Shown here in pieces: positions 2,837-64,000 of a stretch of 64,000 nt of DNA. Origin of the DNA: Lineus longissimus (taxonomy: Eukaryota > Nemertea > Pilidiophora > Heteronemertea > Lineidae). The position numbers were made by a program, and so were the translations under genes. The notes beneath the pieces are model-generated. The model saw nothing but the letters and a program-made list of their open reading frames with translations. It ran no database searches and was not told the origin of the DNA. Position 1 is the stretch's first letter; the number at the start of each line of letters is the position of its first letter. The stretch spans positions 7,073,501 through 7,137,500 of the forward strand of contig NC_088310.1 in assembly GCF_910592395.1 (NCBI RefSeq). The letters are read 5' to 3'.

Positions 2837-4452
2837 GTGTTCAGACGAAGGGCTTTACAACTGAAGATAACGCCGATTAAGATGACACCAGCATCTGTGA
2901 CGAAATTTGATTTGAAAAACCAGGTAATGTTTACCGAAAGCTTAAGTTTATAACATCAAGGTGGTGATTAACATTAAGTTACTGATTAAATTGTTTGCGA
3001 CGAGTGGCCCAAGCCCATTACTGTACATCAGATGAGTTACCCCAAGGGGATGACATCTTAAAAATATCCTAACCAAATAATTCAAGTTTGTTTTTCAAGT
3101 CAACCCATCGTTAGTGGCTGAAATGATAATCAGATAGAATGATTTAACCATCATTAGCAGTATTCCCCCATACGAAACCTTATATCGTAATGTGATAACT
3201 TATTGGCTAATTTGTTATTCTGCTAATCAAATTCTCACTTTATGATGAGTCTGTGACCAATTACAAGATGTCTCAAATCACAGCCACTACTGAATTATGT
3301 AATAAAATTTGCCATGTTTGCTGTTCCCATGTAATCATTAAGCATTAAAGCTATTAATAAATTGGCAAATAATTAAAAGCTAATTAGACAGACGGCAAAC
3401 TGTAACTGCTAATTGTGATAAAACGGCACCAAATTGGTGTCCATGACACCATAACTTGTAAATAATTTGTCACCCTGAGATTTTTCAATTACATCAATTA
3501 TACATGTATGTTTGCCCATTTTGGTCAGATTATCGTAATCAGAAAAATCTGTAAACATATTGTAACTTGATTTACAGATAATTTATGAAAAATCATGCAA
3601 AGTAATCAAAAAAGAAACCAGTATAAAACGAAAAATGTTCATCAAGTGTTTCCTTTCTGATATCCTACAGGTGTACCATCTTTTATCATCTTGGCTGTGA
3701 ACACTTGCTCAAAAACATGCGAGCTGACTAGTTCAATTCCATATCAAAACATACACTACAGGTAAACTCCTAAAATGTTAGCTTTAAACCACACTACTGA
3801 ACCTTATGCAGATATTCTGCTGGTATGTTTCGTTTAGTAAATCTCATGCAATTTACAATTGTGCAAGTTTGTACAAAAACAGTTGAGAACCTCGCTTCTT
3901 AGTCAAACTGAGAATGGTATGTTTTAGTTGTGAGTTCAGTACTGCATGCGGTATAAAAAACCTTTAGACGCACTCACTAGTCTGTATAGTTTAACAACTC
4001 AGATTTTAGTAGAATATTTAGTAATTTCATGCATTCTTTCCATAGACTATTTTACAATTTGAAGTTATCATGATAAAACCAGGCTGACAGTTTTAAGCCG
4101 TACTTTTGCAAAGAATAAAGGTAGAAGTCAACCTAAAACATCAATAAGTGGAACAGGTACATTCATAAAACCTCACTTTTAAAAGCATTGACGACATAAG
4201 TTAACCTAAAATATCAAAAGTCGAATTAACCCGAGTACAAGATTTTCATTAGGCAAATACACAAGTTGAAAACTATCATTCCTAAGATTTATCCAGTAAA
4301 GATTATTTCATCTCAAAACTGAAATTGAGTTGATCAAAGGAGTCGGTAGGAGACGTCCAATTTTGGCAAACTGACGAGGGTTTTAGGGTGAAGGATACGT
4401 TTTGATCAAGACGGAAACTTTAATCTTGCCTGTCTTCCATTTCTGAACTTAC

Positions 4453-4566
4453 ATTATGGACATTTCCCGCTTTCGTCATCAACGTCGAAAGTTCTTCCAA
4501 GCGTTTGATGTCGCTATCGTAGGCGTTGATCTCCTCCCCAAGATGGTTTTGACGCCGCAACAAAGC
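4453..4566 (-). CDS. Beta-spectrin exon, last one visible in window
   Basis: 38 codons, [20 protein letters not shown] then [18 protein letters not shown], joining the previous exon in phase 0 in the middle of a repeat. Donor AAT|GTAAGT. Reading through this donor meets a stop after 10 codons (stop at 4420-4422). No further spectrin-like exon was found down to position 1, so the gene continues outside. Confidence 0.9.
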
Positions 4567-7500
4567 CTGGAAAAGGAAAGTCCGGATATCAGAAACCGGA
4601 TTTTTGCCGAGCAGCAGATATACCATTAACTTAGCTGTGTGCTCTACGGTTGAGAAAGCCACCATCCCTGTAGAGCATAATTCTAGTTCCTCATGTGACA
4701 GGTCTGAACTCATTCTTACTTAAAATAGTCCGACTGTTATAAAACGCGGATTCCGCGGAAAAATCTAACTTGGCTACAGGGTGGCTACCTGAACCGCAGG
4801 TGAGAGTTTTTCATATTAGTAGTGTGCATTGTTGTGCGCATGAAGTACTCCTGGTGACAAGGTCTTTGGGAACCCCCTTTATATGGTGCGCTGTATGCGC
4901 CGTAAATCACAAGCACCTTGTAGATTGAAATAAACTTATACTCTAGACGGGCCGCGAAGTAAGTTTTTGTGATTGCTTAAAATAGACTCCAATGTGCAGT
5001 CGCATATGGTTGGTTAGGTTCGAGCTGCAAGGAGATTGTCCTAAAAAAATTCGTAGGCCAGAATTCAGTTCGTCATCGACTTATATTTGAAGGAGGCATA
5101 TACCGTAACGTACATCAATCCGGGCATCAATCACACTTGAAAGCAGCCCCGCAATGTGTTCCGTTAGGGAAAGAACCACGGTGGTGTCGAAGATAACATG
5201 CAAAGTTTATCAACACCAAGAAAAATAGAGGGAAGAGTCGATCGGAATGGCATGAATGGCGCTCCAGAGGATTAAAATCTGACCGATGAAATGTGCAGAT
5301 AACTGGTAGCTCTTGCCTCCGATTTATGATTTATGTTGTTATTTGTATAATATAATTATCATTCAATATTATGCGCGTATTTACTGGCGGCTTTGTGATT
5401 GAGGATTTTCGCGGAATACGCGTTTTATAACAGCCGGAAATAGTCAGTGCAGTGAGGCAGAGTTTCTTGTCAATGTTAAAAGGTAACTCGTGTCAAATTT
5501 CACCATAAATATAATGTATTAGCTGTTTTTGAAAAATGACTACGTCACTTTCTCATAAATCGGTAAGGTTTTCGAATCGAAATGCACATTTTCTAGAAAT
5601 TGTTGGTTTAATCCCGCCCGGACGGCTCGCTTCGATGCCGTTTTCGTTGATGACGTCACAACATGAACATTTTCGCAGTCCCGGTGGTTTACATTCAGCA
5701 ATTTTATAATAAATCTAATCAAATAATTGGAAAATTTGAGCTTTACATTTGTAATCAACAGTTAAAAACGGACGTATTTCCGCAAAGTTGTAAATCACAT
5801 CATAGTATCACTTTAAGTGAAGTCACATTCTACAAATAAGGGCCAAGGCTATTACTAGCATCTTGCAAGTTTAACCCTTTTGCTGCAGCAGCCCTTTTTT
5901 GATCGGCGCCAATTCTCAACTGGGCTGAAATATCCTTGAGTGTGGCTGCCCTTGGTTCTCCAGAAAGGTTAATACTGGATATGCTGGGTAATAATGTTTG
6001 CAATTGTAACACACTTTGAGACAGTAGATAATACTGTACATAAAACAAATAAAGAAATGTGATAAAACATTGATTTGGTTAAAGGCAATCAAACCAGATG
6101 GCACTGAATCTTACCCCGGCACTTGATTCGTCCTTCCCAAAGTCATCGCTACAAACTAATGGCATCTTCTCTTTGATCCATGACTCAGCTTCATCTGCAT
6201 CAGCATAATACTGAAATTGAAACAAAATCAAAATATTGAAGAGTTGGATGCAAAAGCTGCTGAAAGCCATTCAATATAATCTCAAATTTGGAAAAATAAA
6301 TCACAGCACCAAATCAGCAAACCAATTATACCAGAAAATTTCTAAGACCAACTAGACAATAAACCGAAGAAATTACAGTGAAATGTAGGTGCTGACAAAT
6401 TTTAAAGCGACAAATAATTCGGCCTCACTGGGGAAAGTATATTTGACCTGTCAGCTTGAATGAATTAGGCCTACCTGTTGTGCCTCCTCAGCATCTTCCA
6501 GCCGCTTCCTTCTCTTCTTCACCAAATCCTTCAATTTTTGCCAGTTGTCCTTCAAACTGCGGATATGGCCTCGGATTTCTTTCTTAGCGTAATGGTCCTT
6601 GCTGATCAGGTCGTTACCGGCTGTGCAGATGGTTTCGCAGTTTGGCCAACGCGCTTCCATCTCGGCTTCCAGTACCTGGATTGATAAAGAACAATTTGAG
6701 CTAGCCTCTAATAATGATATAGAGTAGAAAAACTATCACATACATGTAGCATGTAACGATCACCGACACTCTGCGATGGATAACAATAGCTCACATTAGG
6801 AAATCACACCACCACATACCTCATGCTGTTTCAGCTGACGAAGGACGGCCACTAGATCTTTCCCAGTTGTCAGAGACTTGGCCAGCCGCTGTTTATCCAG
6901 CAGCCAACTCTCTTCTTCTTCGGTGTCGCGAAGAAACTGGTAAAATTTCTGCGATTCGTCGAGTTGATTCTTCCTCGAGTTGCACAGGTTGTAAATACTG
7001 GAACAACACAAATACAAATTTAAGAGAACATAGACAAATTTTGTAGGATGTCCATGAAAACTTATAAGTATTCCATTATGATCTAAAATCTGTAGAATAG
7101 GGCCTGATGTGAAGTAACAGAATACAGCAGAACCTGTCTAATAAGGATACCCTCGGGACTGACAAGTGCTGCCCTTAATAGAGAGGTGTCCTGATATTAG
7201 AGAGGTCAAAATGAATAGAAACAACCGCATTGGGACTAAAACTAGTGTCCTTAATAGAGAGGTTGTCCTTACTAGAGAGGTGTCCGCTAAGGGAGGTTCC
7301 ACTGTAACACAATACAGCTGAACCTGTCTAATAAGGATACCTTTGGGACTGACAAGTGCTGTCCTTGGCTTAATAGGGAGTTGTCCCGATTACACTAGGT
7401 CAAATTGTAAAGAAATGTGGGACCAAAATCACTGTCCCTTATAGAGAGGGGTGTCCTCCCAACAAAGGTGTTCACTAATGGAGATTCCACCGAACATGTA

Positions 7501-19930: not shown

Positions 19931-20107
19931 TACAGTGGAACCTCCGTTAGCAGACACCTCTCTATTAAGGACAACCTGTCTTTTAAGGACACTAGTTTTG
20001 GTCCCAGACTGGTTCTTTCCATTCAATTTGATCTCTCTTATCAGGATACCTCTAAAAGGACAGCAATTTTTAGTTTCAAGGATGTCCTTACTAGAGAGGT
20101 TCTAGTC
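19931..20107 (+). mobile_element. Pogo-like MITE, copy 5
   Basis: Begins TACAGTGGAACCTCCGTTAG and ends AGAGAGGTTCTAGT, with the internal CTATTAAGGACAACC and ACTAGTTTTGGTCCCAG signature. It lies upstream of the spectrin start codon. A further broken end (AAGGGAGGTTCTACTAT) is visible at about 20560-20576. Confidence 0.78.
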
Positions 20108-37500: not shown

Positions 37501-40500
37501 AATAAAATAATTATTCATGGCCATTTTATTTCACATTTTAATGAAATAGCAACACAAGCATACCGGTGGAATTGGTCACAACTCCCCGAATTCTCAACAG
37601 CACTCAAAATGGGGATTTTTCCTGAATGGTGAATCTCCACTACATCTTAGCTGTCACCATCCATAGTATCATTTTCCACTATTTTGTGGTTGCGGCCCTC
37701 TCAAGTGGCTTTGAGTGCTCTTGAAAATTAGAGGGGTCATGTTTTCCCTCACTGTTGGCTTTTGTGGACGAGAAATCTAGTAGTCGCATTCCTGCAATGA
37801 TGCCAGTTGACCATTTCAAATGGTCCTTCAAATGCTTGTAATTTTTCACTTTGACACTCTTGGTCCTAATTTCAGAATTATTGAATTTGAAATTTGGATA
37901 CTTATAGAACTGATATATAGCTATTGACCAAGATAAAAACAGTTGTCACTAATAGAACTGCAGATGGCCAAATTCTGACCTCACTGACCAAGATAACAAC
38001 AGTTGTCACTAATAGAACTGACAGCCAAACTCTGACCTCACTGACCAAGATAACAACAGCTGTCACTAATAGAACTGTTGACCAAACTCTGACCTCACTG
38101 ACCAAGATAACAACAGCTGTCACTAATAGAACTGTTGACCAAACTCTGACCCCACTGACCAAGATAACAACAGCTATCACTAATAGAACTGACAGCCAAA
38201 CTCTGACCTCACTGACCAAGATAATAACAGGTGTCACTAATAGAACTGAGAGCCAAACTCTGACCTTACTGACCAAGATAACAACAGCTGTCACTAATAG
38301 AACTGTTGACCAAACTCTGACCTCACTGACCAAGATAACAACAGCTGTCACTAATAGAACTGTTGACCAAACTCTGACCCCACTGACCAAGATAATAACA
38401 GCTGTCACTAATAGAACTGACAGCCAAACTTTGACCTCACTGACCCAAAGATAACAACAGCTGTTACTAATAGAACTGACAGCCAAACTCTGATTGAACT
38501 GACCAATAGCTGTCACTTCTACAACTGACAGCTAAACTCAGACACTTATAGATCTCTGCAACAGTGGTGCCCTCATGCACCGCTGGCCTCTGTAAACTCG
38601 CTCTAGTTATGGGCAATTTGAGGTAAAGAGCTTCTCAGACTGAGGATCACTCGCGCTTGCAAGACCAGACTAGGGTTTGAACCCATGACCCTTTGTTTGA
38701 GAGTTTACACCACCGCTGCGCACCTTGATAAAGAAGAAGATACAGGCAACTCAATACAACAGTCTTCTTCCAAGTAGACCTTAAAAATTCCTCTGACTTT
38801 ACTCATTAGAGACTTGGTTGCTCTTGCGACATGGTATGTAATGAGGGGGATGGGGAGAAATTGAATTATAAACCTCTTCATTATGGATCCCTGGCGTTAA
38901 TTTGATTACAAATGGTAAAATTCTACATAATAGCACTGGCAATAAAATGCATTTAACATTACATGCATTGAGAAAACAGCCACTTATGAATAGCTAAGAC
39001 AGAGTCATTTTGGACTTCAATGGATGTAAGGTATACTGGGTGTTTCAAAAAAAACTTTACACTTCTAGCTGATATTTTTTACATCAAAGGTATCAAATCT
39101 GGCATAGTATTCTAGTGTAACAGACATCAGAAAACATTCTTGTCTTTTATATAATGGACAATCATTTCATACACACAGGATATTTCCGGACTTGATCAAT
39201 GCCAATTATGCAATCATTTTGCTCCAGAAATGTTGATGATGTCGGCTCCTATACTACATGTAGGTTTGATAATAATTGCACTTCAGCATATATGTGTGTG
39301 TATAATATATACGTGTATAACTGCATTTCTATTTTCCTGATCCACTATTTGATAAACACTGCATACCCTTTAACACAATGGCATTCAGTACCCTTTAACA
39401 CAATGGCATTCAGTACCCTTTAACACAATGGCATTCAATACCCTTTAACACAATGGCATTCAGTACCCTTTAACACAATGGCATTCAGTACCCTTTAACA
39501 CAATGGCATTCAATACCCTTTAACACAATGGCATTCAGTACCCTTTAACACAATGGCATTCAATACCCTTTAACACAATGGCATTCAGTACCCTTTAACA
39601 CAATGGCATTCAGTAAACAACAACTTTCTTGACAGGAGCGATGCTGATTAAGTCAACCCAATTGACCGCAGATTTTCTTCAGATGCACGTGTCCTTCCCG
39701 AGGAATTCAATTAAACTTTAATCAGACCTTCTTGTGGGTGGGAGACAGAACTGCAGCAATTTGCATCCGTGTGATGGATAGATGGTCTTCTTTATGCGCA
39801 TCAAGACAGTGTTCGATGCGAGTTTTCTCGAGGAAAAACTTCAAACTTGTAATCATACTGAGTCTTTGGTAGCTAGTAATTAAAACATTTACGGAAATAA
39901 ACTTTTTCGATGAAATTTCCATTAGATTAAACACGAGTAAGAAATTAGTACTTGCAGGATTGGCTTCATTCATTTATCACAAGAAAGAGTTTGAAGTGAT
40001 ATTCCAGAAAAATCTTTCGGGAGAAAAACAAGTTTGTCAAATTCATTGCTTCAGACTATCTAATTTATGACTGAGAGGGTTAATGGTGCTCATGAGAGGC
40101 TTATTTTGGCCATTCACCAAATTCGTTACCAACGGAAGTTTCACTCAACTGGTCATGGGATATTCCAGATTTTGTGACCAAGTAAAATGACGACAAATTT
40201 CCTGTACCGTGTTATTAACGGGTGTCAGACTACCAGGAAATGACGCCTTGTGTTTGATTTTGGCGCGCTTTTCTTCCTTTGTCTTGAGAACAGTGCTGTT
40301 TTGAGTACTTTTAACCAGTATGTTATGACCCTTTTTGAACCGCAGTAATTTCTACAACAAACTTCTTCTAAAAAGCTTCTCGTGATTTCTGAAAAATCTT
40401 TGAAATTGGCCTTGAAATTTCTAGATTACGAAATGATCTTTGAATTCTGTGAAATTTTGAGAAGTGATGGTCCTGTTCCCCATCATACTCTGAATTATGG

Positions 40501-46500: not shown

Positions 46501-49500
46501 CGAGCTGAAACCCAGTCGCCTAGACAGAACAGATTGGTTTATGAATATTTTATATTCAATTTATGCCAAAAACTTATTCTGCATGTAAGAAAGATGTCTT
46601 ACATAACTTAATATATCTTTACCAGGTAATTTTTCCAGGTAGGTGGTAATTACAGCCTGATTCAATTTGAGTGCATGTCCCTTTGATATTCATAGAATGG
46701 TGTGATAGTCACTTGAGGACATCTGCCAGCAGTGAGCTCATCACCAGGCCAATTACCCACTCTAGTCCAGATGAAAAGAAGATCTCAATAGGCCTGCATT
46801 CGATTGACAAACAGACTTCCTTTAATCAAAAGATAAATCTCTTTTATTAAAGAATGACATGAATTTTTAAACAACTGTTTTTCATCTAAGTAACATGTGG
46901 CAATTAGTTTGACTGATGTTCATAATTTATGAGTCACTTTGCTCACAAATGAGAGTAGTGGCATCTGGTGAAAAAATTACAAACTAGACAACAGCTGTAT
47001 CATCTCAAATCGTCCGTTTATTGTAAGAAATCAAATGATATTTTTCTATAACACCATATCAGCACCAAGGGTCTCATCCCCTCCCCTCAAAAGAAAGTTG
47101 TGCCACTAACATTTGAATTTCCTTCCCTATACTCTCTGTTGGCTAATGATTACGCTTATTAATATCTTAATGAATTGCCTTTTAGCAAGAATTGATAAAG
47201 ACTAGTCTTTATTAATTCTTGAATTTGTGTGGTAATACCAATCTCAGGTGCCTGGGCATGCGATTGATCATTTTACGCCATTATATTGACTTGAGGTAAT
47301 AGTTCCTAATTACTGATTACATGTATCTTGCTTACTGGATACATTTCAGTCATATTAGTATATTGCATCAGTAATGGCATCAATGGCCTCTGAATTCAAT
47401 GCCACATGGCAGAGGTACCCTGCTAATGATGTTAAGTGAAAATATTTATTTTATTGGGGCTGAAATAAGAAGTACAGTGCAACCTCCCTTAGCAGACACC
47501 TCTCTATTAAGGACAACCTCTCTATTAAGGACACTAGTTTTGGTCTCAAATTGGTAGTTTCCTTTCAATTTGACCTCTCTAATCAGGACACCTCTCTATA
47601 AAGGATAGCACTTGTCAGTCCCGAGGGTGTCCTTAATAGAGAGGTTCTACTGTAGTTAGGTGCAGAACCAAGGAGGCACCTGATGCACCAGACGCACACC
47701 CCTCTCCCTGATTTATGAAAAATCTTTGAATTAGACTGAAATTTTGGAATGCACCAGGAATTTGGATAAGAAATGCAATGCACGCCCCTCTTGTTCTTCC
47801 TGGATCAGCCGCTGGTAGTTCTAAGCCTCTCGCGGAGAGGGCCATGAAGATTTGTTGCTCTGGAACGAAAACGTCAAGGGGTGCACACCTCATGTAGTTC
47901 CACCCCATAAAGGTGCAAGCCTCAAGCCTCAAGTCTCATGCGCCACTCCTAAACCTGCCACTGCCCCGTACTACAAAAGCAGAAGTTAACCGCAAAGATT
48001 TTACGCCAATGTTGCAATAAATAACCATCGCCCCTTTGTACTGTTAATTGGTTGGAGCGAAATCCATCGATTTACCTCTTCACGGGCTCGTTAAGTTAAT
48101 TAGTCAGGCTAGGTGATTATATACTACGTTATATCATCATGAACTATCCTATTCTGAAGAACAAATTAAACTCAGGGGGATAAGCCCCTTGGACACAGAC
48201 AATGCTCAGGTTGCTAAGTCTTTTGGAGACATCGTTCTGACGTGATTGTCATTTCTCTTTGATGAGGTAACTCGGGTACGTTGGCTGACATTTCCAAATT
48301 TAGTAAATGCAAAATTGACAAGATTAAGGTAGTGGTGATGAAAGGAGATGAAAGATAGAGATCAAATTATCTGAAACCAACGACGCACCTTGATGACGAT
48401 GAGGACATCATGGCCTGTGACCTAGGGAACGTCAATATACTTTTGAATTCGGCGTTACAAATAGTTCGGGATCTACATAATAGAAAATAAGCGTATATAT
48501 AAGTTTGCAATGTATCTACTTCAAGGTATTGTCCCCGCAGCTCCAACTGCACCCAGGGTCCATCCATCAGGCGTCCACAATGTTGACATATCGTGGAGTG
48601 CGGATGATGCGGACCAGTCCAATAGTTCGTTGATATTTGTGATAGAATTCAGTTCTGGTGCTGGTAGTACGTGGAGCATTCTGGCTAAGGTGAGTGGGTT
48701 TTTAGGTTCTCTAGTTATTGCGGGACGGCACCGAAACCTTGGCAACAACTCCAGAAGAAAATATACTTGATGCTTCTGACAGCCGCAGCCTGTGCCACAT
48801 TCTTGGGGTCAGATGGCATCACACTGGTGCTGACATGCTCTATGTATGGAAGAAGACGGACTCCCAAAGAGGCTACTAAACTGGTGCCTGGAACGAGTTG
48901 GTGGCAAAAGAACAAGGGCAGGACACATGTAAGATGGCTTGATGGCCTCTTCTGTGCCCTGCAAGATGATATTTGGAGGCGTTCCTGTGGCTCTCATGAC
49001 ATGGCCGAACAACCTCAGCTTTTCTTCTAGGCAATTGTTAGGAGGCTGTCATGATGCCCATTGTATTGGACGACGGTGCAGCTCTCTTACTCTCTAACCT
49101 ATCCTAGCTCCCACCCAATGTGTCCCAGTAACATCTTAAAATCTAAGTGTGTTGCCTTGCAATTGTACTTCAGACCTGGCAGCAGCATTATGAAGCCAGC
49201 AATCTTGATGTGTGTCAGAGGTACCACTATAGGATTGCTGCGGTCAATCGATTTGGACAATCAGGCTACTCCCCGGTGGTCAGCAGGACTGACGCTATGC
49301 TTCCTAGGCCCGGACCAATCCATAGCCCCACCTATATCACCGGGCCGTACTACGATGCGATGAACAGAAACGTCGGGCAGGTTGGATACTTCAAGGCTGT
49401 GATCACGTGGAAATCGCCAATAGGTTGGTTGCATTTATTTGATTTGCAAATATTTTTGAAAAGTGTTGAGTCGAGAGCACGTGAGTTAACTAATGGGTCA

Positions 49501-52500: not shown

Positions 52501-55500
52501 ATATTTTTTGACTTCTCCATCATTCAGCAGCTCACGATGGAGACAACAGTCGAGGCGAGAACATTGCTATCTACATCTCCATCCCGATCTGTGCGATGGT
52601 GGTCCTAATCGTTGGCACCATCTATGGTATAAGACGGCAGCGAAAGTTTTTCCATCTCGAGCAGCAGGGGTCAGCTTTTACGGAATCGTACAATCTGTAC
52701 AATCAGGTCAGGATAGTTGAGGAGAGGTCAGTAACTTAAGGATACCATAAGCCGGGGTGACATTGGTTCAGAGTGGGGTGAAGTTGTCCAATATGCAGTG
52801 GAACCTCCCTTAGCAGACACCTCTCTATTAAGGACAACCTCTCTATTAAGGACACTAGTTTTGGTCCCAACTTGGTTGTTTCCATTCAATTTGACCTCTC
52901 TAATCAGGACACCTCTCTATTAAGGACAGCACTTGTCAGTCCCGTGTGTGTCCTTAATAGAGAGGTTCTACTGTATTTTAAACTCTACAGCTTAAACCAC
53001 ACATTTGGGTCTCAATGTTTTTATTGTCTATGTAATGACATGTATTGGTCCACTTCAATGGATTATATACTGATATCAGCTCATTGCTCATTTTTCATTT
53101 GCACAGAAATTTTGCACTTTTCTTCTAAAAGTTTTTTTTCGAATTACTGAGCATGCATGAGTTCCATAACCAAACAGGCAATCTGTTGGTGTCAATCCTG
53201 TATAATAATCTTGCCCTTGTTTTTCAGCCCTCCAGCTTCCCCAACCAGGGCCGTGCCCTACACTGACAAGTGGGAGATACCCTATGGACTACTGTACTTA
53301 CAAGATGAACTAGGTGAAGGTGCATTCGGCCATGTCTATATGGCCACGTTGAGATTCTGTGATGTTCAAAATGACAGTGTGACGTTGCTGCCGTTTGCCA
53401 AGGATTTGGCAACTAATGGCTGCTCAGAGATGACTGTGGCTGTGAAAAAATTGCATGGTAAGAATAAGACAGTGCGGAGTAGATCTCTTACATTATTTGA
53501 TACACCACTGGCATTGACATTATCAGTTACAAATTCATACACCACTGGCATTGACATCATCAGTTACAAATTCATACACCACTGGCATTGACATTATCAG
53601 TTACAAATTCATACACCACTGACATTGACATTATCAGTTACAAATTCATACACAACTGGCATTGACATTATCAGTTACAAATTCATACACCACTGGCATT
53701 GACATTATCAGTTACAAATTCATACACAACTGGCATTGACATTATCAGTTACAAATTCATACACAACTGGCATTGACATTATCAGTTACAAATTCATACA
53801 CCACTTGCATTGACATTATCAGTTACAAATTCATACACCACTGGCATTGACATTATCAGTTACAAATTCATACACAACTGGCATTGACATTATCAGTTAC
53901 AAATTCATACACAACTGGCATTGACATTATCAGTTACAAATTCATTTTCTTTCAGAATACGCCGACAAGTGTCAGAAGCAGGAGTTCCTCCGCGAGATCC
54001 ACTTGATGAAGACACTGGGCAGCCATCAAAATGTTGTGAATATGATCGGGTGCTGTACGATAGAGGAGCCGCTGTGTCTCGTGGTCGAGCACATGCCCAA
54101 TGGCGACTTGTTACATTATTTGAGGAAGCACAGGAACTCAATGCAGGGGGTAGGTCATCTCAAAATTACCCATATCATCATTCAGCATTGTTTTGACGTC
54201 CTGATCTAAATTTGATGAGGCCTCTGCCTCCTCAATGTGGGGGCGAACTCGTGAATCTTGCATTCTCGTTTCAAGTGTGCATGTTGCTGTCAAATTGTTT
54301 TAATTTTGTCCCTATAAGGACACCGGCTGTCCCTTCATCAACCCAAACTGTGTGGTCCCTGTTCCGATCTGAGACAAAGCCCAAATTCTCACAGTGCTAC
54401 TGACGTATCTCACTTTTCATTTTGCAACGGAACGAGAGATGGCAGCACTACATGTTTCAGCATTTTGATCGAGGAGTCTGATGAAGTGTCTGATATATCG
54501 CAATGTATATGCATTATGTGACCCATCACACTAAATTTGGTAGTAAGTAGCCAGGACTAGTATTGAGCAATCACTGACAATATAGAATTTATGCCGATTT
54601 TGATTGTTTTAACAGGAGGGTGTTCAGGATGGTGATATTTACTATGAGGAGGACCGACTCAAGTATCAAGACTTGTTGTCCTTCGCCAGACAGATTGCTA
54701 AAGGAATGGTAAGGGCTCTTTCACCAGACTCTTTTAGCAAACCTTTCATGGCCCCCCCTTTGGATCTGTAACTGGCAACTCAGACCAAAACAATCTATAA
54801 GACTACCCAACTGCTGCAGATACACTATTGTGACAATATGGCCTTGATAATTTCGATTCGGAATGAAAGATGACTACTGGGATTGAAAACATACTTTTGT
54901 ATCAACATTCAAAAAGTAAAGGAAAGGAAATGGCGTCTTGTATCATGCATCCATTCCAAGTGGCCAAGCTCATTATGCCCTTAACTTTCTCCTTTCAGGA
55001 ATTCCTCTCCCAGAAGGGTTTCGTTCATCGCGACCTCGCGTCAAGAAACATCCTCGTTGGCGAGAACAGAATGGTGAAAGTCAGCGATTTTGGATTGACG
55101 CGCTATGTATATGATGATAAAGTTTATGTAAATAGAAAAGGGGGAAAACTACCGCTGAAGTGGATGTCGATAGAGGCCATTTTTGATTTGACGTTTTCAA
55201 CAGCTAGTGATGTGTAAGTGTTATAGTGACCCATTCATTTTTACTATGTCGGTGTTCACATGCTCATTGGCAGTTGACTTATATGGGCTTTGTGTTATGT
55301 GATGTGGAAGAACATCTCACCTACTCCACAAGGGCTGATTTAGAAGGCCTTAGCAGTCTGCTGACCTTATACTCTTTGATCTTGACGATAGACAAGATTA
55401 GTCACCAATCTAAAGGTTTAAATTTGTTTTTGTCTTTCAGGTGGGCATTTGGAGTTGTGTTGTTTGAAATTATAACACTAGGTGGCACTCCATACCCGAT

Positions 55501-58500
55501 TATCTCAAACAAGGACTTGCTGCGAGAGTTGAAAATGGGCTACAGGATGGAAAAGCCAGACAACTGTGATGATGAATTGTAAGTAACAGGGATGAGATAT
55601 TATCGATTTTTGGAGAATTTCCATTTTTTCCCCTCCCAAACATAATTTGTGACAGCAGAAATGGAAAGATGTATACCTCAGCTGTCCGTAGAACTTTGAA
55701 TTTTTGAAATCGAACAAAAAACAACAATTTTAGAGGCTTATTTTGAAGTTTTTCATATTTTGCATTTTCACATGAATGCTTGTTTTCATTTTTTTTGCTC
55801 AGGGCACTGCCATATCCCTGTACAATATACTCAAAATCTGTCTATATTTCTTGAAAATTTAAGGAAACATATGGATTTATCTTGACATAAATGGCACTGT
55901 TATCATCAGAACATTCTCAATAACAGCTTTCCATCAGATGATCATGAAAATGTTTTTGACAGTTTTCACTCTGGGGGCAAATTCTGTGTCCTACACTTTG
56001 CACCAGATGTCAGCACCAGTGCGTTAGAAAGTGTGAAGTGTTGGCGGTTGCAAGATGGCCAGGGTTGTCCATGGGTTTAGTTCTTCCCACCATTTTGAGA
56101 GGGCAGTTGTGCATATCGGGTTAGTTCAGGGAATATCTTCATTGGAATTGCTTTTGAATATACCCAGCAGACATCCAAACAGCCCCACATATATTCCTGG
56201 GGCGGCCAAATTCCTTTTCCAACCAAATTTGTTGAGTTCAAAAACTGTCATATCACAATCAATTGTCCTTAATAGGGAGGGTGGTCACTTAAGTCTGTTG
56301 AGGGAGTATTTATTACAAGACATTACAGAAACAATGTACTTGAACAACAAAGGGCCTAATGCACTTGTTTTACCCAATGGTTAACATTTCGATGTCTCTG
56401 ACTAGGTCTTAACACATTTTATGACAAATTTACTCAGAATACTAAACGACGCTTGATTTTCAAGATAAAATCAAGTCATAATTCTTCCTAACCAACATGA
56501 AAGGATTTCATCTGATTGAAAAGTGTGAACACGAAATGTGGCCCAGTTTGTCTTCAGTCTACCGTCTGCTTTGAGCCTCCTTGCAAGTCTATCTGTCACC
56601 CCCTTTGTTGTCGGGATGTTTGACATTAACCAGACCTCCGCCATAAAGTTCTTCGACAAGCCGAGAGGACATGGTGCGTAAGCAAGAAAGGCAACCGCAC
56701 AAAAGTAGTGCAAAAACACCGCGGCGGCAAGTTCAACATACTGTTTCATGTAGGGAACTTGTCAAGATTGTGATAAAGACGCATTTGGTTTGCTTTTCTG
56801 AACATGCAACTTTGAACTGAAACGCCAGGGTCCATGCTGCGAGGTTCGCCAGACCGCGTGCTGTTGTTGATAATCTGCTGAACCTAGCTTTGCTGAAATC
56901 TTTGAACTGGGACTCCTGCAAAAAACACCACTGCACATGATAAGTGCAGAAGCAACATCTCGGTGGTTGGCAACAACAAGTTTTAAGTTTCTAAGTCATG
57001 TGAGCATGGCCAAAGGATCTCCATTTTGCAAGTTCTCGCCAGTTCGGGGAGTTGGAAATACCCCAACCTGACCAGAACTGGTGACAACCCCATCGAACCT
57101 TTCTCATTTGACTAGGCCATGAAAAATACCAGGGCATAGATCTAGGTCAAGGCAGAAGTAAGGCAGAAGTAGCAACAACTTGCAAAACGGTGATCCTTGC
57201 CAGACTGGTGAGTGGTCGAGAAACGTAAAGGGGCAAAAACTTTTTGGAGGTAGGGGTGTTGAAACGTAGGTAGGAAAGAGTGAAAAATGTCCCCTCTTAA
57301 ATGCCAAGCGAGCAGGCTTGGGTATTTCTGTGTCAGAAAAAACAGCGGAAGGCACGATTCTTCACACATTTTGCTCACAAACTACGCAATTACGGAGGAA
57401 TTCGATGTATTCCTTAGTATTTTACCGATTCTTTGGATAACACGCAAACGTGTCATAATGTGGTGAAATATCCAGCTAAGTTTTGAAGAAATTTCGCGCA
57501 TACGTCTTTATTTCAACATCCCACACACCCAATCATGTCACCTTCCCAGAACACCATCTTGAAAACAACCCAGCAGAATTAAAAACGTCTAAATGTTCAC
57601 CGGAAAACGTCCATTCAGCGTGAAAAGTATTTTGAATGTTATCGGGAAATCTTGAACAATTTTAAAGATAACATCTCGAACTATCCAGTGTGTGACAAAG
57701 AAATTATGACGAGGTTTTGCTACATGGCTCACCCAAGCTTTGCTCTTTAATGGCTTAACAATGTTTGTGGGTTATTAGCCTTCTAGGCGAAACACGCCAA
57801 CTTGGCACACATTTCTCAATTTGCAAAATTTTTGACAAATGAGTAATCTTGGTTGAAATTTGAGAAGGTGGTGAATGTTTCTCGTTTTTATGTAAGAAAC
57901 ACAGATTTCAATTGGTTCTTTAATAAAGCAGTGAACCAGGAGGATGCTACATAGAGCTCCTTTGCTAAGACTTGGGACTGTAATAGGACACTGTAATGAA
58001 AAAAATAAATATAGACAAAGAGTTTTTGGAGAAAGGTATTGAATCTGGGGTCATGGGGAATGGAAGTTGTAATTTTAGGTTGTTGAGCCTAGGGTAGGGC
58101 ATTACTGGGCAGCAATCTGTAATTGGAACCCAGTTTTGGTCGTGAATGCGGAGAGGGTACCAGCATTGGAAACGGCACACCACAGGGTGAACTGATCGTA
58201 TCAGTCGAAGACCACCAAGGCACCATAATGTTCACGAAAACCAACACAATGAGCTAGTCAAACTAAGTGGGATAATTCATGAAATATCGCTTGGATCGTT
58301 CCTGTTCAAATTGTGGTTGAAAATGGGAAACTGTTTCATATTTTCAATCCTTATTCATATTTGGTATTTCAATTAGTGTTGCCAGATTTGAGCGAATTCA
58401 GATCATATTGTCAGCCTTCAGCTGTCAGTTTAACCCTTTCTCGGCTAAAGGTGACATCTCCACCTTGGGAAATTGTCCTAAAATTGTAAGATTTATAAAG

Positions 58501-61500
58501 TTTGGAACACATTAAAACCAGTTGACATGACACATCGTTTAAAAGCTCAAAATGAGCTCTTTCTGTGATGATAACATTATGTGTCTTGTTATTTTGGAAC
58601 TCTTGTGGCATTGTTGATAGTTGAGCTTCCAAAGGGTTGTAACTTTCTTTGTCCATTGTCAGCCCTCAATGTTAGAAACGCGTCAAAACCAGTTGACAAG
58701 ACACAAAGTTAATAGCAACATGTCAAAACCAGTTGACAAGACACAAAGTTAATAGCAACACGTCAAAACCAGTTGACAAGCCACAAAGTTAATAGCAACA
58801 CGTCAAAACCAGTTGACAAGACACAAAGTTAATAGCAACATGTCAAAACCAGTTGACAAGCCACAAAGTTAATAGCAATACTTCAAAACCAGTTGACAAG
58901 ACACAAAGTTAATAGCAACATGTCAAAACCAGTTGACAAGACACAAAGTTAATAGCAACACGTCAAAACCAGTTGACAAGCCACAAAGTTAATAGCAATA
59001 CTTCAAAACCAGTTGACAAGACACAAAGTTAATAGCAACATGTCAAAACCAGTTGACAAGACACAAGGTTAATAGCAACACTTCAAAACCAGTTGACAAG
59101 ACACAAAGTTAATAGCAACACGTCAAAACCAGTTGACAAGACATAAAGTTAATAGCAACATGTCAAAACCAGTTGACAAGACACAAAGTTAATAGCAACA
59201 CTTCAAAACCAGTTGACAAGACACAAAGTTAATAGCAACACGTCAAAACCAGTTGACTTGAAACTCATTTGAAAGGTCTCAGTGAGCACTTTCTAATGGT
59301 AGCATATGTGTCTTTTTATTTTGGATTGAGTATTTCATAGTCTTGTGGCAGTGTTTATGGTCTAATTTTCAAAGAGTTAACTTTGTCCATTACTTACAAA
59401 CTACCACAGGTTAGCATAACAACCAGCCGATGTTTGTTTAAAAGTAATGCTTTTTAGAGGTTTCCCAGAACAGCGTCTTTCGGACAGGTGGTGAGGAAGG
59501 CCAGACCCTCACAGCATTAAAGCAAACCTGTCAGCAAAAATCACCAGCCACTCTAGCTAACTACATTTTTATGACTATGAGGAAAGCTAATGTTTTCATA
59601 GTGGTTTGCTCCAGGTAACCGAGCATGAAAAGAGCAATCTTTTGAGTATACAGCCATTAGCCAGAGGGCCACCTGCTTCTCAAAGATGGATGCCCTGCCG
59701 CCTTCAAAGGAAAGCAGTGTTTTTGAATGAAACCAGCGCCACTGTCACGGCAGATCTACCTCAATCAGTTGAGGTTTTCCAATGGTTTGTCATACTTGAA
59801 CATTTCCTTTTCCTGGATTTGCCTCAAATACAAGATGGTCACCCAAAAATGCAAAATGGCCGCTTTGTGACAAAATAACCGTATTCTAGCAAATGACATT
59901 ATGCACCACTGTTAGGCAGACCAGAGCCGAGGAAATTCTATACTTTAGACATTAACTTTTTCTCAGTGGTTTCATCCCCTTTGAAATAGCTTTCTTTGGA
60001 TGATTCTGGATTTTGCCTGGAATCCAAAATGGCTACTTATATTAAAGCCAAAATGGCTGCTAGATTACATGATATGTTTTTTTCAGCTATACCCCCATTC
60101 AAGCAGAAGTAATTTCAGTGTGCTGTTTACGAGAGACCCCTATTGGTTTACTTGGTGTAACTTAATCTGTCCTACCTGGAGCCTCCCTATACACTCAATT
60201 TAAAAAAGCACTTTCTGTGGAGAAAAAAATTATGACAAGTTAATTTCCATCCTCATTGTTTTGGAGGCAGACTTGCTCTAGAATGAATTTGCTGACATTC
60301 TTGGTGCTGTGGGTTTTGGACGGATGAATGAAAGGTTGCACCAGATAATGGCAGCAATATTTCACGAAAATATCACCCATCTTGTACTCAGGCCGGTTAA
60401 AACATCCTGGTCATGATGCAAAGGAAAGCAATTTGGCTTTTACCATTCACCTGTCTGTGGAATATCATTCACTACTTTCCATTAAGAAATTTTGTCAAAA
60501 AGGACATATTCCACTAGACAAGAAGCTTTAGGAATTTCTTCCTAGAAAAATACAGTTTCTGAAAACCAGTTGCTCACAATGCTATCATCGGCTGAGCTGC
60601 CATCATAGACAGTTATTAGGAGTTTGTTCAAAGATTTGTTTCATAAGGAGAACATCATCATGTCAGTTTTAAAATGTCGTAGATGAAAGGTCAAAGCAAA
60701 GATTTGTAAGAGAACCTTACCAGCAATTTCAAACTTATTGGCTCTTCCTTCATGAATACAACACCCTACCCCCAAATGCACAATAATGCATAGTAATACG
60801 TGGCTGCATTGTACTCGCATAGGTAAAGTGCATTACTATGCATAAGTTCAGAATCACTAAAAAGCTAACTTTGCTCCTGGTCTCCCCTTACAACATTATC
60901 TTTCATTGATTTGCTCAAAAGGTACAAAAAGGTCTGGAAGGCCTCTCATTTCAGCCTTAGGAATCAAATAGTTACTTTTTGAGCCATGATGGAATCGAAG
61001 TAATCCAAACGTGGCCAAGTTCTTTGAAATGAACAAGCTGGTCGCTGCGTGATTAAGTGATAAAGTCCTCCTTGTAGGACTACTTGAACCACACTTAGCT
61101 GATTGCCGATTTCAAAATATTTACTTTGGGCAGATAAATTGTTTTGATACTTTAAATTGTACATAGAGGCCTCTAAATTACCGGTTAAACCTTGTTATTT
61201 GTTGAGCGTTTACTAGTGAAAGTTTGTTTGACATGTAGTGTAGTTGTGACATTTAGGGCCCCTTAGTGAAAGTTAACAAGTTAAGTAGCCACATATCTGG
61301 ATATGACTATCTTGTTAGTAAGTAAGGAGGATCAAAGCTATCATCTTCAGAGATTTGTTGAAAATATGATAAACAGTGAATCAACAGCTTAGATTTATCA
61401 GCACAAACAGAAAAGTCATTAACCCTCACACACACTGTTCATAAAAAGCTGGAATTTATATTCAGTATACTCGATTGGAAATTTTTGAATTTGGAGTCAA

Positions 61501-64000
61501 ATGCCCACATTTTTCTCTCTTCAGGTATTATATGATGTTGGATTGCTTGGGTCAATGCCTACATTTTTCTCACTTCAGGTATTACATGATGTTGGATTGC
61601 TGGAGTCAAATGCCCACATTTTTCTCTCTTCAGGTATTATATCATGTTGGATTGCTGGAGTCAATGCCTACATTTTTCTCACTTCAGGTATTATATCACA
61701 TTGGATTGCTGGAGTCAATGCCCACATTTTTCTCACTTCAGGTATTATATCATGTTGGATTGCTGGAGTCAATGCCTACATTTTTCTCACTTCAGGTATT
61801 ATATCATGTTGGATTGCTGGAGTCAATGCCTACATTTTTCTCACTTCAGGTATTATATCATGTTGGATTGCTGGAGTCAATGCCCACATTTTTCTCACTT
61901 CAGGTATTATATCATGTTGGATTGCTGGAGTCAATGCCTACACTTTTCTCACTTCAGGTATTACATGATGTTGGATTGCTGGAGTCAATTGCCCACATTT
62001 TTCTCACCTCAGGTATTATATCACATTGGATTGCTGGAGTCAATGCCCACATTTTTCTCACTTCAGGTATTATATCATGTTGGATTGCTGGAGTCAAATG
62101 CCCACATTTTTCTCTCTTCAGGTATTATATCATGTTGGATTGCTGGAGTCAATGCCTACATTTTTCTCACTTCAGGTATTATATCACATTGGATTGCTGG
62201 AGTCAATGCCCACATTTTTCTCACTTCAGGTATTATATCATGTTGGATTGCTGGAGTCAATGCCTACATTTTTCTCACTTCAGGTATTATATCATGTTGG
62301 ATTGCTGGAGTCAATGCCTACATTTTTCTCACCTCAGGTATTATATCACATTGGATTGCTGGAGTCAATGCCCACATTTTTCTCTCTTCAGGTATTATAT
62401 CATGTTGGATTGCTGGAGTCAATGTCCACATTTTTCTCACTTCAGGTATTACATGATGTTGGATTGCTGGAGTCAATTGCCCACATTTTTCTCACCTCAG
62501 GTATTATATCATGTTGGATTGCTGGAGTCAATTGCCCACATTTTTCTCACTTCAGGTATTATATCATGTTGGATTGCTGGAGTCAATGCCCACATTTTTC
62601 TCGCTTGCTGGAGTCAATTACATTATTCAAATATTCAACAAACATTGTATGCCTTTAAACAGATTTTTAAAAACACCTGCGACACAAACAAATGAGGAAT
62701 GTGCTATGGTCCGTCCCCAATAAGTTAGTTGAATTCCCGACATGCAACTTGCGACAATTTACTTTGTTCATGCCAATAATCAGAAAATGACTGGTGTATT
62801 TTAAAAATAAATACCATGTAATTACAGGAACAGACCCTGAAAAAAGTGGTTTAACAACATGTAATGTCTACATTGTTTGCATACAACAGGTAATACAGTT
62901 TGCATGACCTCTTCAATATTATTAGTTCTGTATTTTGTCTCAAGATGGCAGTGAGCCCACAAATACCCATGTCAAAATTAAATCGCCAACTATGAAAGTT
63001 CACAATATTTTGTAGTAGAATTACTAAGTTCAGGATGTTACGAAATTTAAAGATTAAACTTCTCTCATGTTTTAGGTATCATATGTTGGATTGCTGGTGT
63101 CGGAGCTCTTTCTTATTAGGTATAAGATAAGATGTTGGATTGCTGGAGTCAATCCCCACATTTTTCTCCCTTCAGGTATTACATCATGTTGGATTGCTGG
63201 TGTCAATGCTCAAATCGTTCTTGCTTTATATATGATGTTGGATTGCAGGAGTCAATGCCCTAATTTTTCTTGTTTTAGGTATTATATGATGTTGGATTGC
63301 AGGAGTCAATGCCCTAATTTTTCTCACTTTAGGTATTATATGATGTTGGATTGCAGGAGTCAATGCCCTAATTTTTCTTGTTTTAGGTATTATATGATGT
63401 TGGATTGCAGGAATCAATGTCCTAATGTTTTCTCGTTTTAGGTATTATATGATGTTGGATTGCAGGAGTCATTGCCCTAATTTTTCTTGTTTTAGGTATC
63501 ATATGATGTTGGATTGCAGGAGTCAATGCCCTAATTTTTCTTGTTTTAGGTTTTATATGATGTTGGATTGCAGGAATCAATGTCCTAATGTTTTCTCGTT
63601 TTAGGTATTATATGATGTTGGATTGCAGGAGTCATTGCCCTAATTTTTCTTGTTTTAGGTATCATATGATGTTGGATTGCAGGAGTCAATGCCCTGATTT
63701 TTCTCACTTTAGGTATTATATGATGTTGGATTGCTTGAATCGATGTCCTAATGTTTTCTCGTTTTAGGTATCATATGATGTTGGATTGCTGGAGTCAATG
63801 CCCCAATGATCGACCAGACTTTACGGACCTGAAGCTGCACCTGGACATGATGATCGAGAAGCTGTGTAAGACTGACTACTTGGATATCGATCTTGAGAAT
63901 ATGAAGGCGTACTATAATGCTCCGATCATGGAAGAGGATGATGACGCAGGAAATGAGGATGTGGGGGATGATTTTGAGGATATCTTTGGAGCAGGTGTTG
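31400..64000 (+). CDS. Receptor tyrosine kinase with Cys-rich N-terminus and three FN3 domains (Torso-like layout), 18 exons, 3' end missing
   Basis: A single-pass receptor tyrosine kinase expected to bind an extracellular ligand and phosphorylate itself and adaptors. Eighteen exons splice without a phase error into at least 922 residues. Parts: signal peptide 1-24; Cys-rich region about 49-97; FN3-1 about 98-185; FN3-2 about 186-313; FN3-3 about 314-425; stalk; TM helix 501-523 followed by RRQRK; kinase about 570-870. Kinase residues: GEGAFG 584-589, VAVK Lys628, helix C Glu645, HRDLASRN with Asp739, DFG Asp757, activation-loop YVYDDKVY 763-770, WAFGVVLFEI, LGGTPYP. The kinase insert is short, unlike arthropod Torso. 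FGFR and Ret share the GGTPYP..RMEKPDNC style, so the exact family is uncertain. The tail has YLDI and KAYYNAP tyrosines. The link between the first three exons and the FN3 exons is inferred from phase and domain logic. Confidence 0.85.
33905..34034. repeat. Long hairpin (palindromic MITE-like), about 130 bp
   Basis: The left arm AGGTAGAATGGGGTATTTGT then AGCCCTGG..TAGCCCCTGC is mirrored by a right arm GCAGGGGCTACAATTAAACC then AGGGCTACAATTACCCCATT. Arms of about 46 bp with few mismatches surround a loop of about 37 bp. It lies in RTK intron 1. Confidence 0.88.
37927..38540. repeat. 57-bp minisatellite, about 10-11 copies
   Basis: The unit contains ACTGACCAAGATAACAACAG and CTGTCACTAATAGAACTG, with alternating TTGACC and ACAGCC variants suggesting a higher-order pattern. 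Because 57 is divisible by 3, both strands stay open for 176-204 codons. There is no start context, splice site or homology to suggest coding. RTK intron 1. Confidence 0.93.
39363..39615. repeat. 25-bp minisatellite, about 10 copies
   Basis: Near-perfect tandem copies of a 25-bp unit containing ACCCTTTAACACAATGGCAT, with a G/A variant (TTCAGT or TTCAAT) scattered among units. RTK intron 1. Confidence 0.95.
42313..42369 (+). CDS. RTK exon 2: Cys-rich segment
   Basis: 19 codons, RDCPHKCEVFTGDKWLQEC. Acceptor CTATTTCCAG, donor TGT|GTGAGT, phase 0 at both ends. C-x3-C and a distal C continue the pattern of exon 1. Too short for ORF detection; found from splice sites. Confidence 0.68.
42729..42780 (+). 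CDS. RTK exon 3: Cys-rich segment
   Basis: 17 codons plus 1 nt, GKSAECVSTCNHLTNAT. Acceptor ACATTTCTAG, donor ACCG|GTAAGT. C-x3-C plus an N-glycosylation sequon (NAT). The phase-1 end fits the next exon exactly. Anosmin, ROS and Torso also have such Cys pairs before FN3 domains. Confidence 0.68.
45087..45171 (-). mobile_element. Pogo-like MITE, truncated copy 6
   Basis: AAGGATATCCTCGGGACTGA and GCTGTCCCTAATAGAGAGG are joined directly to CTAAGGGAGGTTTCACTGTA. The central half of the element is deleted. RTK intron 3. Confidence 0.72.
47186..47221. repeat. ACTAGT-centred palindrome, copy 2
   Basis: A 36-bp near-perfect palindrome centred on AAAGACTAGTCTTT with CAAGAATT and AATTCTTG ends, matching the one at 2801-2836 though the flanks differ. 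RTK intron 3. Confidence 0.7.
47473..47654 (+). mobile_element. Pogo-like MITE, copy 7 (nearly intact)
   Basis: TACAGTGCAACCTCCCTTAG to AATAGAGAGGTTCTACTGTA, 182 bp, closely matching the copy at 52794-52975. Terminal inverted repeats and TA at both ends are preserved. RTK intron 3. Confidence 0.82.
48541..48689 (+). CDS. RTK exon 4: FN3-1, first half
   Basis: Encodes (A)PTAPRVHPSGVHNVDISWSA, then FVIEFSSGAGSTWSILAK. P-x-A-P-x-V and D-I-S-W are the FN3 strand A and B landmarks. Acceptor TTGTCCCCGCAG, donor AAG|GTGAGT. Confidence 0.88.
48750..49030. mobile_element. Possible degraded LINE remnant in an RTK intron
   Basis: The plus strand shows SRSLCHILGVRWHHTGAD and, in another frame, KGRTHVRWLDGLFCALQDDI. 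The minus strand shows LRLFGHVMRATGTPPNIILQ. All recall the C-terminal part of non-LTR retrotransposon ORF2, but they lie on opposite strands. I infer a rearranged relic and am unsure. Confidence 0.35.
49174..49423 (+). CDS. RTK exon 5: FN3-1 end and FN3-2 start
   Basis: 83 codons plus 1 nt. CQRYHYRIAAVNRFGQSGYS is the FN3 strand F-G motif (Y-x-Y-R-I-A-A-V-N-x-x-G). FN3-2 then begins near LPRPGPIHSPTYITG and reaches FKAVITWKSPI. Phase 1 donor. Confidence 0.92.
49648..49763 (+). CDS. RTK exon 6: FN3-2 middle
   Basis: Completes Gly, then WNDTTEISKYSQPTSSKICN and HNSVIGIPLPLVNYQ. Contains NDT and NST sequons. Low similarity alone, but phases 2 and 0 and both splice sites (CCACTAG, CAG|GTAAGC) fit. 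Confidence 0.85.
50130..50262 (+). CDS. RTK exon 7: FN3-2 end
   Basis: 44 codons plus 1 nt: SGSKNVLEVKVLSKAFGCRF then EFKVHAVTRCGTKGQEGSF. F-E-F-K-V-H-A-V-T-x-x-G is the closing FN3 motif. The two Cys may pair. Donor CAG|GTGAGG. Confidence 0.9.
50818..51017 (+). CDS. RTK exon 8: FN3-3, first part
   Basis: Completes Ala, then IDPDPVRGVMPVPINNTLDV, EISWTPPVNLGTSRFLLEYRLQW and ENETVVPA. E-I-S-W-T-P-P and L-E-Y-R-L-Q-W are clear FN3 strands. Sequons NNT and NET. Donor GCT|GTAAGT. Confidence 0.93.
51465..51521 (+). CDS. RTK exon 9: FN3-3, short exon
   Basis: 19 codons, NTTKTVITVNHGGREYGVR, phase 0 at both ends. E-Y-G-V-R starts the strand F motif that continues as IIAIGSDS in the next exon. Confidence 0.88.
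51747..51825 (+). CDS. RTK exon 10: FN3-3 end
   Basis: 26 codons plus 1 nt, IIAIGSDSKPVKWGLLAIKT then FMVPEP. Acceptor GGCATTTCAG, donor CCAA|GTAAGT. Confidence 0.88.
51967..52155 (+). CDS. RTK exon 11: extracellular stalk
   Basis: Encodes (I)FQVRKDEEDEPVKSTTKLPA, PTQPRFLVTLNTTEHLSPYI and VPGELKETEPHPKSE: a polar, Pro/Thr/Glu-rich stalk with one NTT sequon. Length and phase fit. Donor GAGG|GTAAGA. Confidence 0.85.
52528..52726 (+). CDS. RTK exon 12: transmembrane helix and juxtamembrane region
   Basis: IAIYISIPICAMVVLIVGTI plus YGI (501-523) is a single membrane span. RRQRKFF follows as stop-transfer, then a juxtamembrane stretch with FTESYNLYNQVRIVEE. Donor GAG-AG|GTCAGT. Confidence 0.93.
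52794..52975 (+). mobile_element. Pogo-like MITE, copy 8
   Basis: A near-complete copy of 182 bp: CAGTGGAACCTCCCTTAGCA at the left, AATAGAGAGGTTCTACTGTA at the right. It lies only 67 bp after the transmembrane exon donor. The left TA is mutated to TG. Confidence 0.82.
53228..53457 (+). CDS. RTK exon 13: kinase N-lobe start
   Basis: Encodes YTDKWEIPYGLLYLQDELGE, GAFGHVYMATLRF and MTVAVKKLH. It holds the glycine loop GEGAFG and catalytic VAVK lysine. An unusually long insert (CDVQNDSVTLLPFAKDLATN) separates beta-2 and beta-3. Donor CATG|GTAAGA. Confidence 0.95.
53490..53950. repeat. 37-bp minisatellite filling a kinase intron
   Basis: About 12 copies of a 37-bp unit containing CACTGGCATTGACATTATCA and TTACAAATTCATAC. 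The array occupies nearly all of the 498-bp intron between exons 13 and 14. Its last partial unit runs into the real polypyrimidine tract and CAG at 53955. Confidence 0.95.
53956..54149 (+). CDS. RTK exon 14: kinase helix C to hinge
   Basis: Encodes (E)YADKCQKQEFLREIHLMKTL, GSHQNVVNMIGCCTIEEPLC, LVVEHMPNGDLLHYLRKHRN and SMQG. Helix C Glu645 and hinge V-V-E-H-M-P-N-G-D-L are clear RTK features. Phase 0 donor GGG|GTAGGT. Confidence 0.95.
54616..54708 (+). CDS. RTK exon 15: kinase insert and helix E
   Basis: 31 codons: EGVQDGDIYYEEDRLKYQDL then LSFARQIAKGM. The kinase insert is short and holds a YYEE tyrosine pair. L-L-S-F-A-R-Q-I-A-K-G-M is the conserved helix E of RTKs. Confidence 0.95.
54999..55213 (+). 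CDS. RTK exon 16: catalytic loop and activation segment
   Basis: Carries FVHRDLASRNILVGE, VKVSDFGLTRYVYDD, KVYVNRKGGKLPLKWMSIEA and FSTASDV. Catalytic Asp739 and DFG Asp757 are intact, predicting an active kinase. SIE replaces the usual APE, as occurs in some RTKs. Donor AT-GT|GTAAGT, phase 2. Confidence 0.96.
55441..55578 (+). CDS. RTK exon 17: kinase C-lobe
   Basis: Encodes (V)WAFGVVLFEIITLGGTPYPI, ISNKDLLRELKMGYRMEKPD and NCDDE. Ends with 2 nt (TT) of a Leu codon before GTAAGT. It must join an acceptor followed by G, which the last exon and every 54-bp array copy supply. Confidence 0.96.
58681..59256. repeat. 40-bp minisatellite, about 14 copies
   Basis: The unit contains GTCAAAACCAGTTGACAAGA then CACAAAGTTAATAGCAACAC, nearly identical across copies with a few phased variants (GCCACAAAG, ATACTTC). 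It lies in RTK intron 17. A single ancestral-looking unit (AAAACCAGTTGACATGACAC) sits upstream at 58514. Confidence 0.95.
61500..62615 (+). repeat. 54-bp array A: about 20 copies of the last kinase exon's 3' splice site and first codons
   Basis: Each unit reads ...CACATTTTTCTCACTTCAG|G then TAT TAT ATC ATG TTG GAT TGC TGG AGT CAA TGC CC, i.e. pyrimidine tract, AG, and 12 codons YYIMLDCWSQCP that match the start of the real terminal exon (YHMMLDCWSQCP). The unit is 54 bp, with occasional 55-bp units (extra A or T before GCCC). The array is open in long frames on the plus strand, a by-product of the unit length. It ends in a deleted copy at about 62600. Confidence 0.95.
63070..63767 (+). repeat. 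54-bp array B: about 12 further decoy copies running into the real exon
   Basis: Same element as array A but mostly with TTGCAGGAGTCAATG and with GCCCTAATTTTTCTTGTTTTAG upstream of the AG. The earliest units (63070-63240) are degenerate, one lacking the AG. A three-unit block (gaatcaatgt/cattgccc/atcatatg variants) is duplicated. The last decoy (acceptor at 63711) is followed by the true acceptor at 63767. Confidence 0.95.
63768..64000 (+). CDS. RTK exon 18: kinase subdomain XI and C-terminal tail, open at window end
   Basis: G completes Leu, then YHMMLDCWSQCPNDRPDFTD, LKLHLDMMIEKLCKTDYLDI, ENMKAYYNAPIMEEDDD and an acidic tail. C-W-x-x-x-P-x-D-R-P-x-F is the invariant RTK subdomain XI motif with its Arg. 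YLDI and YYNAP are candidate phosphotyrosine docking sites. No stop codon before position 64000. Confidence 0.95.

Follow-up and report, generated by a model that had tools for sequence, protein, structure and literature searches.

In the 64-kb window (the whole stretch of Lineus longissimus DNA analysed, 64,000 nucleotides), the 3′ splice site and the first codons of a receptor tyrosine kinase exon are repeated as 33 extra copies in one 8.2-kb intron. We consider it probable that a minisatellite was born across this exon edge, that it is homogenising with the real acceptor, and that it is mostly ignored in splicing.

The Receptor Tyrosine Kinase Gene

The features described below lie on the + strand unless stated otherwise. 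The kinase exon located 5′ of the array-bearing intron (55441..55578) has GT-AG joins and an open frame, corresponds to residues 208-253 of the predicted database protein P0001, and ends with ...PDNCDDE and 2 nt of the following codon. The 8189-bp intron (55579..63767) starts with the donor GTAAGT and ends with the acceptor TTTTAG, whose AG lies at 63766..63767. The next kinase exon (YHMMLDCWSQCPNDRPDF...) occupies 63768..64000 and continues beyond the window end; past its window-matching part, P0001 has 125 further residues. The join from 55578|55579 to 63768 proposed in the sequence-only reading was upheld, as EL|YHMMLDCWSQCP leaves the kinase frame open. No stop was found in the reading frame of the joined kinase exons, and P0001, the single kinase protein listed for the locus, was 100% identical over 90% of the joined-exon query; its sequence connects 55578 with 63768 and leaves out all array copies. 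The tyrosine-type kinase domain is intact (PF07714 match, 311.6 bits), and EGFR (a two-domain entry) came first among the 60 PDB matches listed out of 2536, followed by FGFR and RET.

Upstream, the nine exon joins tested for P0121 (Lineus longissimus LOC135484623) all fit GT-AG introns of the window. One receptor gene is seemingly split into two database proteins, P0121 for the ectodomain and P0001 for the kinase (window 31523-64000): P0121 continues beyond an exon until it meets a stop at ~52229, and the starting Met of P0001 lies at 53340. By eye, positions ~52530-52720 encode a transmembrane-like segment (IAIYISIPICAMVVLIVGTIYG) that could link both proteins. Three ectodomain translations gave no Pfam family match; P0121 nevertheless has a precomputed FN3 domain.

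Two Arrays of the Exon Edge Precede the Genuine Acceptor

Array 1 (61492..62606) is made of 20 copies of a 54/55-bp acceptor-plus-exon-edge unit with a higher-order period of 488 bp. Array 2 (63060..63767) has 13 upstream copies, 12 of them with AG|GT, that run into the genuine acceptor with a higher-order period of 163 bp (54+54+55), and it covers about 63060-63807 when the genuine exon edge is included. The TRF program reported a period of 54 for both arrays, with 20.5 copies at 61492-62606 (93% matches, score 1931) and 12.6 copies at 63127-63807 (86% matches, score 985). By anchor counting, array 1 has 20 copies, and in array 2 the genuine exon is preceded by 13 copies, the first of which is degenerate and lies 5′ of the TRF start. 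Units are spaced by 54 or 55 bp, with two 49-bp spacings at the 5′ end of array 2. TRF and anchor counts confirmed the proposed unit, a pyrimidine tract, AG and about 12 codons from the 63768 exon (YHMMLDCWSQCP). The copy numbers first estimated were about 20 for array 1 and about 12 for array 2. It had also been said that the second array ends at the genuine exon; array 2 in fact takes in the genuine acceptor and exon edge as its last member.

The spacer between the arrays (62607..63059) is unique and matches only itself within the window. A repeated mobile insertion was considered as its origin and rejected, no second copy being present in the window; the spacer may still have arisen as a single-copy insertion. 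Outside the arrays, no exact unit anchor was found in the 64-kb window, and the inexact anchor matches (25 before 61000 and one in the spacer) each carry 1 or 2 mismatches in 10 bases. The lack of an exact anchor elsewhere in the window argues against a dispersed satellite that ends by chance at the 63768 exon, as does the fact that homologous coding sequence runs on in the unit beyond the exon edge and that the unit takes in the genuine acceptor; such a satellite is an extremely improbable origin.

Tandem arrays are error-prone in assembly, and one of the amphioxus exon-edge repeats known as mirages was aberrantly assembled in a draft genome (PMC3087553). However, the copies described here differ at many positions and unique sequence separates the two arrays; an assembly error could alter the copy number, but would hardly produce diverged units. 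It is thus very improbable that the arrays are an artefact with fewer copies in the reads.

Many Copies Resemble Usable Acceptors

The AG|GT was kept in 32 of the 33 copies (20/20 in array 1 and 12/13 in array 2), which are referred to below as decoys. Acceptors were scored with a small matrix built from the 14 other acceptors of the gene, for which leave-one-out scores ranged from 1.0 to 14.9. The genuine acceptor (63766-63767) scored 7.8 with this 14-acceptor matrix, and 14 of the 32 decoys reached at least this score with the same small matrix (4/20 in array 1 and 10/12 in array 2), as did 2 of the 448 other AGs of the intron. The proposal that the intron contains many potential 3′ splice sites is therefore well founded, with AG|GT in 32/33 copies and a score matching the genuine one in 14/32. 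As so many decoys score as high, acceptor score, by this measure, fails to explain the exclusive use of 63768.

The AG|GT found in nearly all copies would also suit recursive splicing, in which each copy would act as a joined acceptor and donor and the intron would be removed stepwise through the array. A recursive (ratchet) site has a strong donor directly behind the acceptor, and this was not what was found: scored as a donor, CAG|GTATTA of the typical unit gave −1.0, whereas 14 real donors of the gene had leave-one-out scores from 3.7 to 10.7; among the 3481 GT sites that were scored across the window, CAG|GTATTA ranks near the middle, at the 55th percentile. We regard stepwise removal as scarcely credible.

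All 32 decoy paths reach a stop before 63768, and thus no decoy yields a full-length kinase. In array 2, the stop of 10 of the 12 decoys is a TAG inside the acceptor of a later, 55-bp-spaced unit (63439, 63602, or 63765, of which 63765 belongs to the genuine acceptor); all nine array 2 decoys from 63279 onward stop in this way. Decoys could be used at a low or regulated rate, giving a kinase cut before the end of the C-lobe with an array-derived tail of 18 to 390 aa, a receptor product that would probably be inactive and possibly dominant-negative. The many decoys as strong as the genuine acceptor in the small matrix are in line with such use, as are the stops met by every path and the TAG within acceptors of array 2. 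However, a search with array peptides (three units per array, entry-frame tails, proteins of ~200-630 aa) matched no protein except P0001 (1 of 89 candidates, E up to 10), and hence no tailed protein, and conservation of the AG columns does not exceed that of neighbours that lack a splicing role (see below). Low-rate or regulated decoy use is therefore unlikely. For the splicing effect implied by the word "decoy" in the sequence-only reading, nothing direct was found: the predicted P0001 skips the copies, and the array-peptide search gave no other protein. A further hypothesis, which we hold to be quite improbable, is that the arrays form an acceptor sink dependent on copy number, where some transcripts would end and make inactive truncated receptors, so that array length would tune receptor signalling; if so, array length should differ between individuals.

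The Exon-Derived Part Varies as if Neutral and the Genuine Edge Shares in Homogenisation

When 30 of the 33 copies were compared with the genuine codons (three were left out as gapped or misaligned), 13 distinct changes were counted over ten codons, 1 of them synonymous and 12 non-synonymous, where 8 of the 90 possible single changes are synonymous. The exon-derived part thus appears, from these small numbers, to vary as predicted without protein selection. The Trp codon, which is near-invariant in kinases, was lost in 11 of the 33 copies. The two AG columns were kept in 33 and 32 of the 34 rows of the alignment, one row being misaligned, and the GGATTGC columns, which have no known splicing role, in 34/34, so that conservation is no higher at the AG columns. 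Several frames of the 54-bp unit are open, and the arrays were also considered as a coding repeat; this reading was ruled out by the 55-bp spacings, which shift the frame, by the stop of all decoy paths before the genuine exon, and by the neutral-like variation.

Mean identity was 92% among array 1 copies and 78% among array 2 copies, three poorly alignable copies included; between copies of the two arrays it was 78%. Two array 2 units, those with anchors at 63454 and 63617, share 95% identity with the unit that holds the genuine acceptor and exon edge, which indicates that the genuine edge takes part in the homogenisation. Unit 63188 has a mean identity of 89% to array 1, versus 78% to the array 2 units 63291-63725, and because it is closer to array 1, array 1 may descend from the 5′ part of array 2, which would be older. 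By eye, the first array 2 copy is flanked on its left by sequence of its own, a feature compatible with an ancestral acceptor at that place. The unit junction was located, also by eye, where the exon CCCCAATG resembles the intron CCTAATG, a likeness which suggests that the first duplication was microhomology-based.

The preferred reading, a minisatellite born across the exon edge, can be laid out as follows. A short tandem duplication would have taken in the last ~18 nt of the intron and the first ~37 nt of the exon, and slippage or unequal exchange probably expanded it into two minisatellite arrays, with 20 extra copies in array 1 and 13 in array 2, which still includes the genuine acceptor. 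The copies are intronic and give no sign of protein constraint. In normal transcripts, the spliceosome would join 55578 to 63768 and ignore the decoys in the RNA; the last copy alone is attached to a full exon and is probably chosen by exon definition.

Other Minisatellites of the Window

The window contains nine array loci with a period of at least 25 (the kinase arrays being counted once), and the kinase gene has 29 exon edges. If these arrays were placed at random, the probability that at least one array unit spans an exon edge of the gene would be 0.16; since the stretch is so rich in minisatellites, an exon-edge array is not very improbable in itself. The striking part is the copy number, together with the tolerance of the gene for these copies.

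The intron of the kinase arrays also holds a 40-bp minisatellite of 14.6 copies (58673..59257); with two copies as a query, it had no match in the window beyond the neighbourhood of the array. In another kinase intron, most of the sequence is filled by a 37-bp × 12 minisatellite (53500-53945), which stops 10 bases before the exon at 53956 and, by eye, includes no exon sequence. A 57-bp × 10 array (37925-38493), open in both the forward (177 aa) and the reverse (209 aa) direction, sits between the P0121 exons 31582 and 42313. The 18-bp unit ACCTCTCTATTAAGGACA forms short tandem pairs at 19956-19991, 47498-47533, and 52819-52854, a pattern reminiscent of a small dispersed element. Elsewhere, at 4423-7137 on the minus strand, open frames resemble spectrin repeats by eye.

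Comparison with Known Exon-Edge Repeats

Tandem repeats of intron-exon boundaries, named mirages, are described in amphioxus for Adh3 and for the globin genes BflGb6 and BflGb9 (PMC3087553), and further mirages are reported for TnC and PGBD5 (PMC3902484). According to these accounts, normal splicing is undisturbed and the copies evolve in concert (PMC3087553, PMC3902484). Like mirages, the kinase arrays consist of minisatellite-like tandem copies across an intron-exon boundary, many of which keep AG/GT (32/33 in Lineus longissimus), and, as in BflGb6, the 3′ end of the intron and the 5′ part of the exon are copied (PMC3087553). Two differences emerge from the description of BflGb6 (PMC3087553): its two haplotypes have 6 or 3 repeat units, versus 33 extra copies in the one Lineus longissimus haplotype, and its cluster-boundary copies are said to escape homogenisation, whereas in the kinase gene two inner units share 95% identity with the genuine edge. 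Unlike the amphioxus mirages, the arrays described here belong to a nemertean and to a receptor kinase gene, and are two and separated. The cephalochordate host was treated as the place where mirages were seen rather than as a defining feature; in cephalochordates, such repeats have been suggested to be common. On the structural features compared, the Lineus longissimus case looks like a mirage.

For human segmental duplications, internal tandem repeats located at exon-intron boundaries reportedly change splicing and give rise to novel introns in transcripts (PMC2812944). Like the kinase arrays, they are tandem and of minisatellite size, the human variable repeats at all positions averaging 30 bp × 4 (PMC2812944). 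Given the amphioxus and human precedents, the first view of exon-edge amplification as unusual is not supported in the form in which it was put (PMC3087553, PMC2812944). Unlike the human repeats, with their novel introns in transcripts, the kinase arrays are known here from the genomic sequence and a predicted protein. The minisatellite of IFI6 (6-16) reportedly supplies multiple splice donor sites; it resembles the kinase arrays in that a minisatellite gives many splice sites, on the donor side in IFI6 and on the acceptor side here. A literature search of limited reach returned no report of such repeats in nemerteans, and an earlier report is possible.

Boundary repeats have been proposed as seeds of new introns (PMC3087553, PMC2812944). 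The intron also amounts to a natural experiment on 3′ splice-site choice, with 32 similar acceptors set apart from the used one mainly by the sequence behind them; should the last acceptor alone be used in RNA, exon definition would be favoured as the cause, rather than acceptor strength or transcription order. The exon-edge minisatellites of amphioxus and human are thereby extended to a nemertean, with more copies than in the amphioxus globin case.
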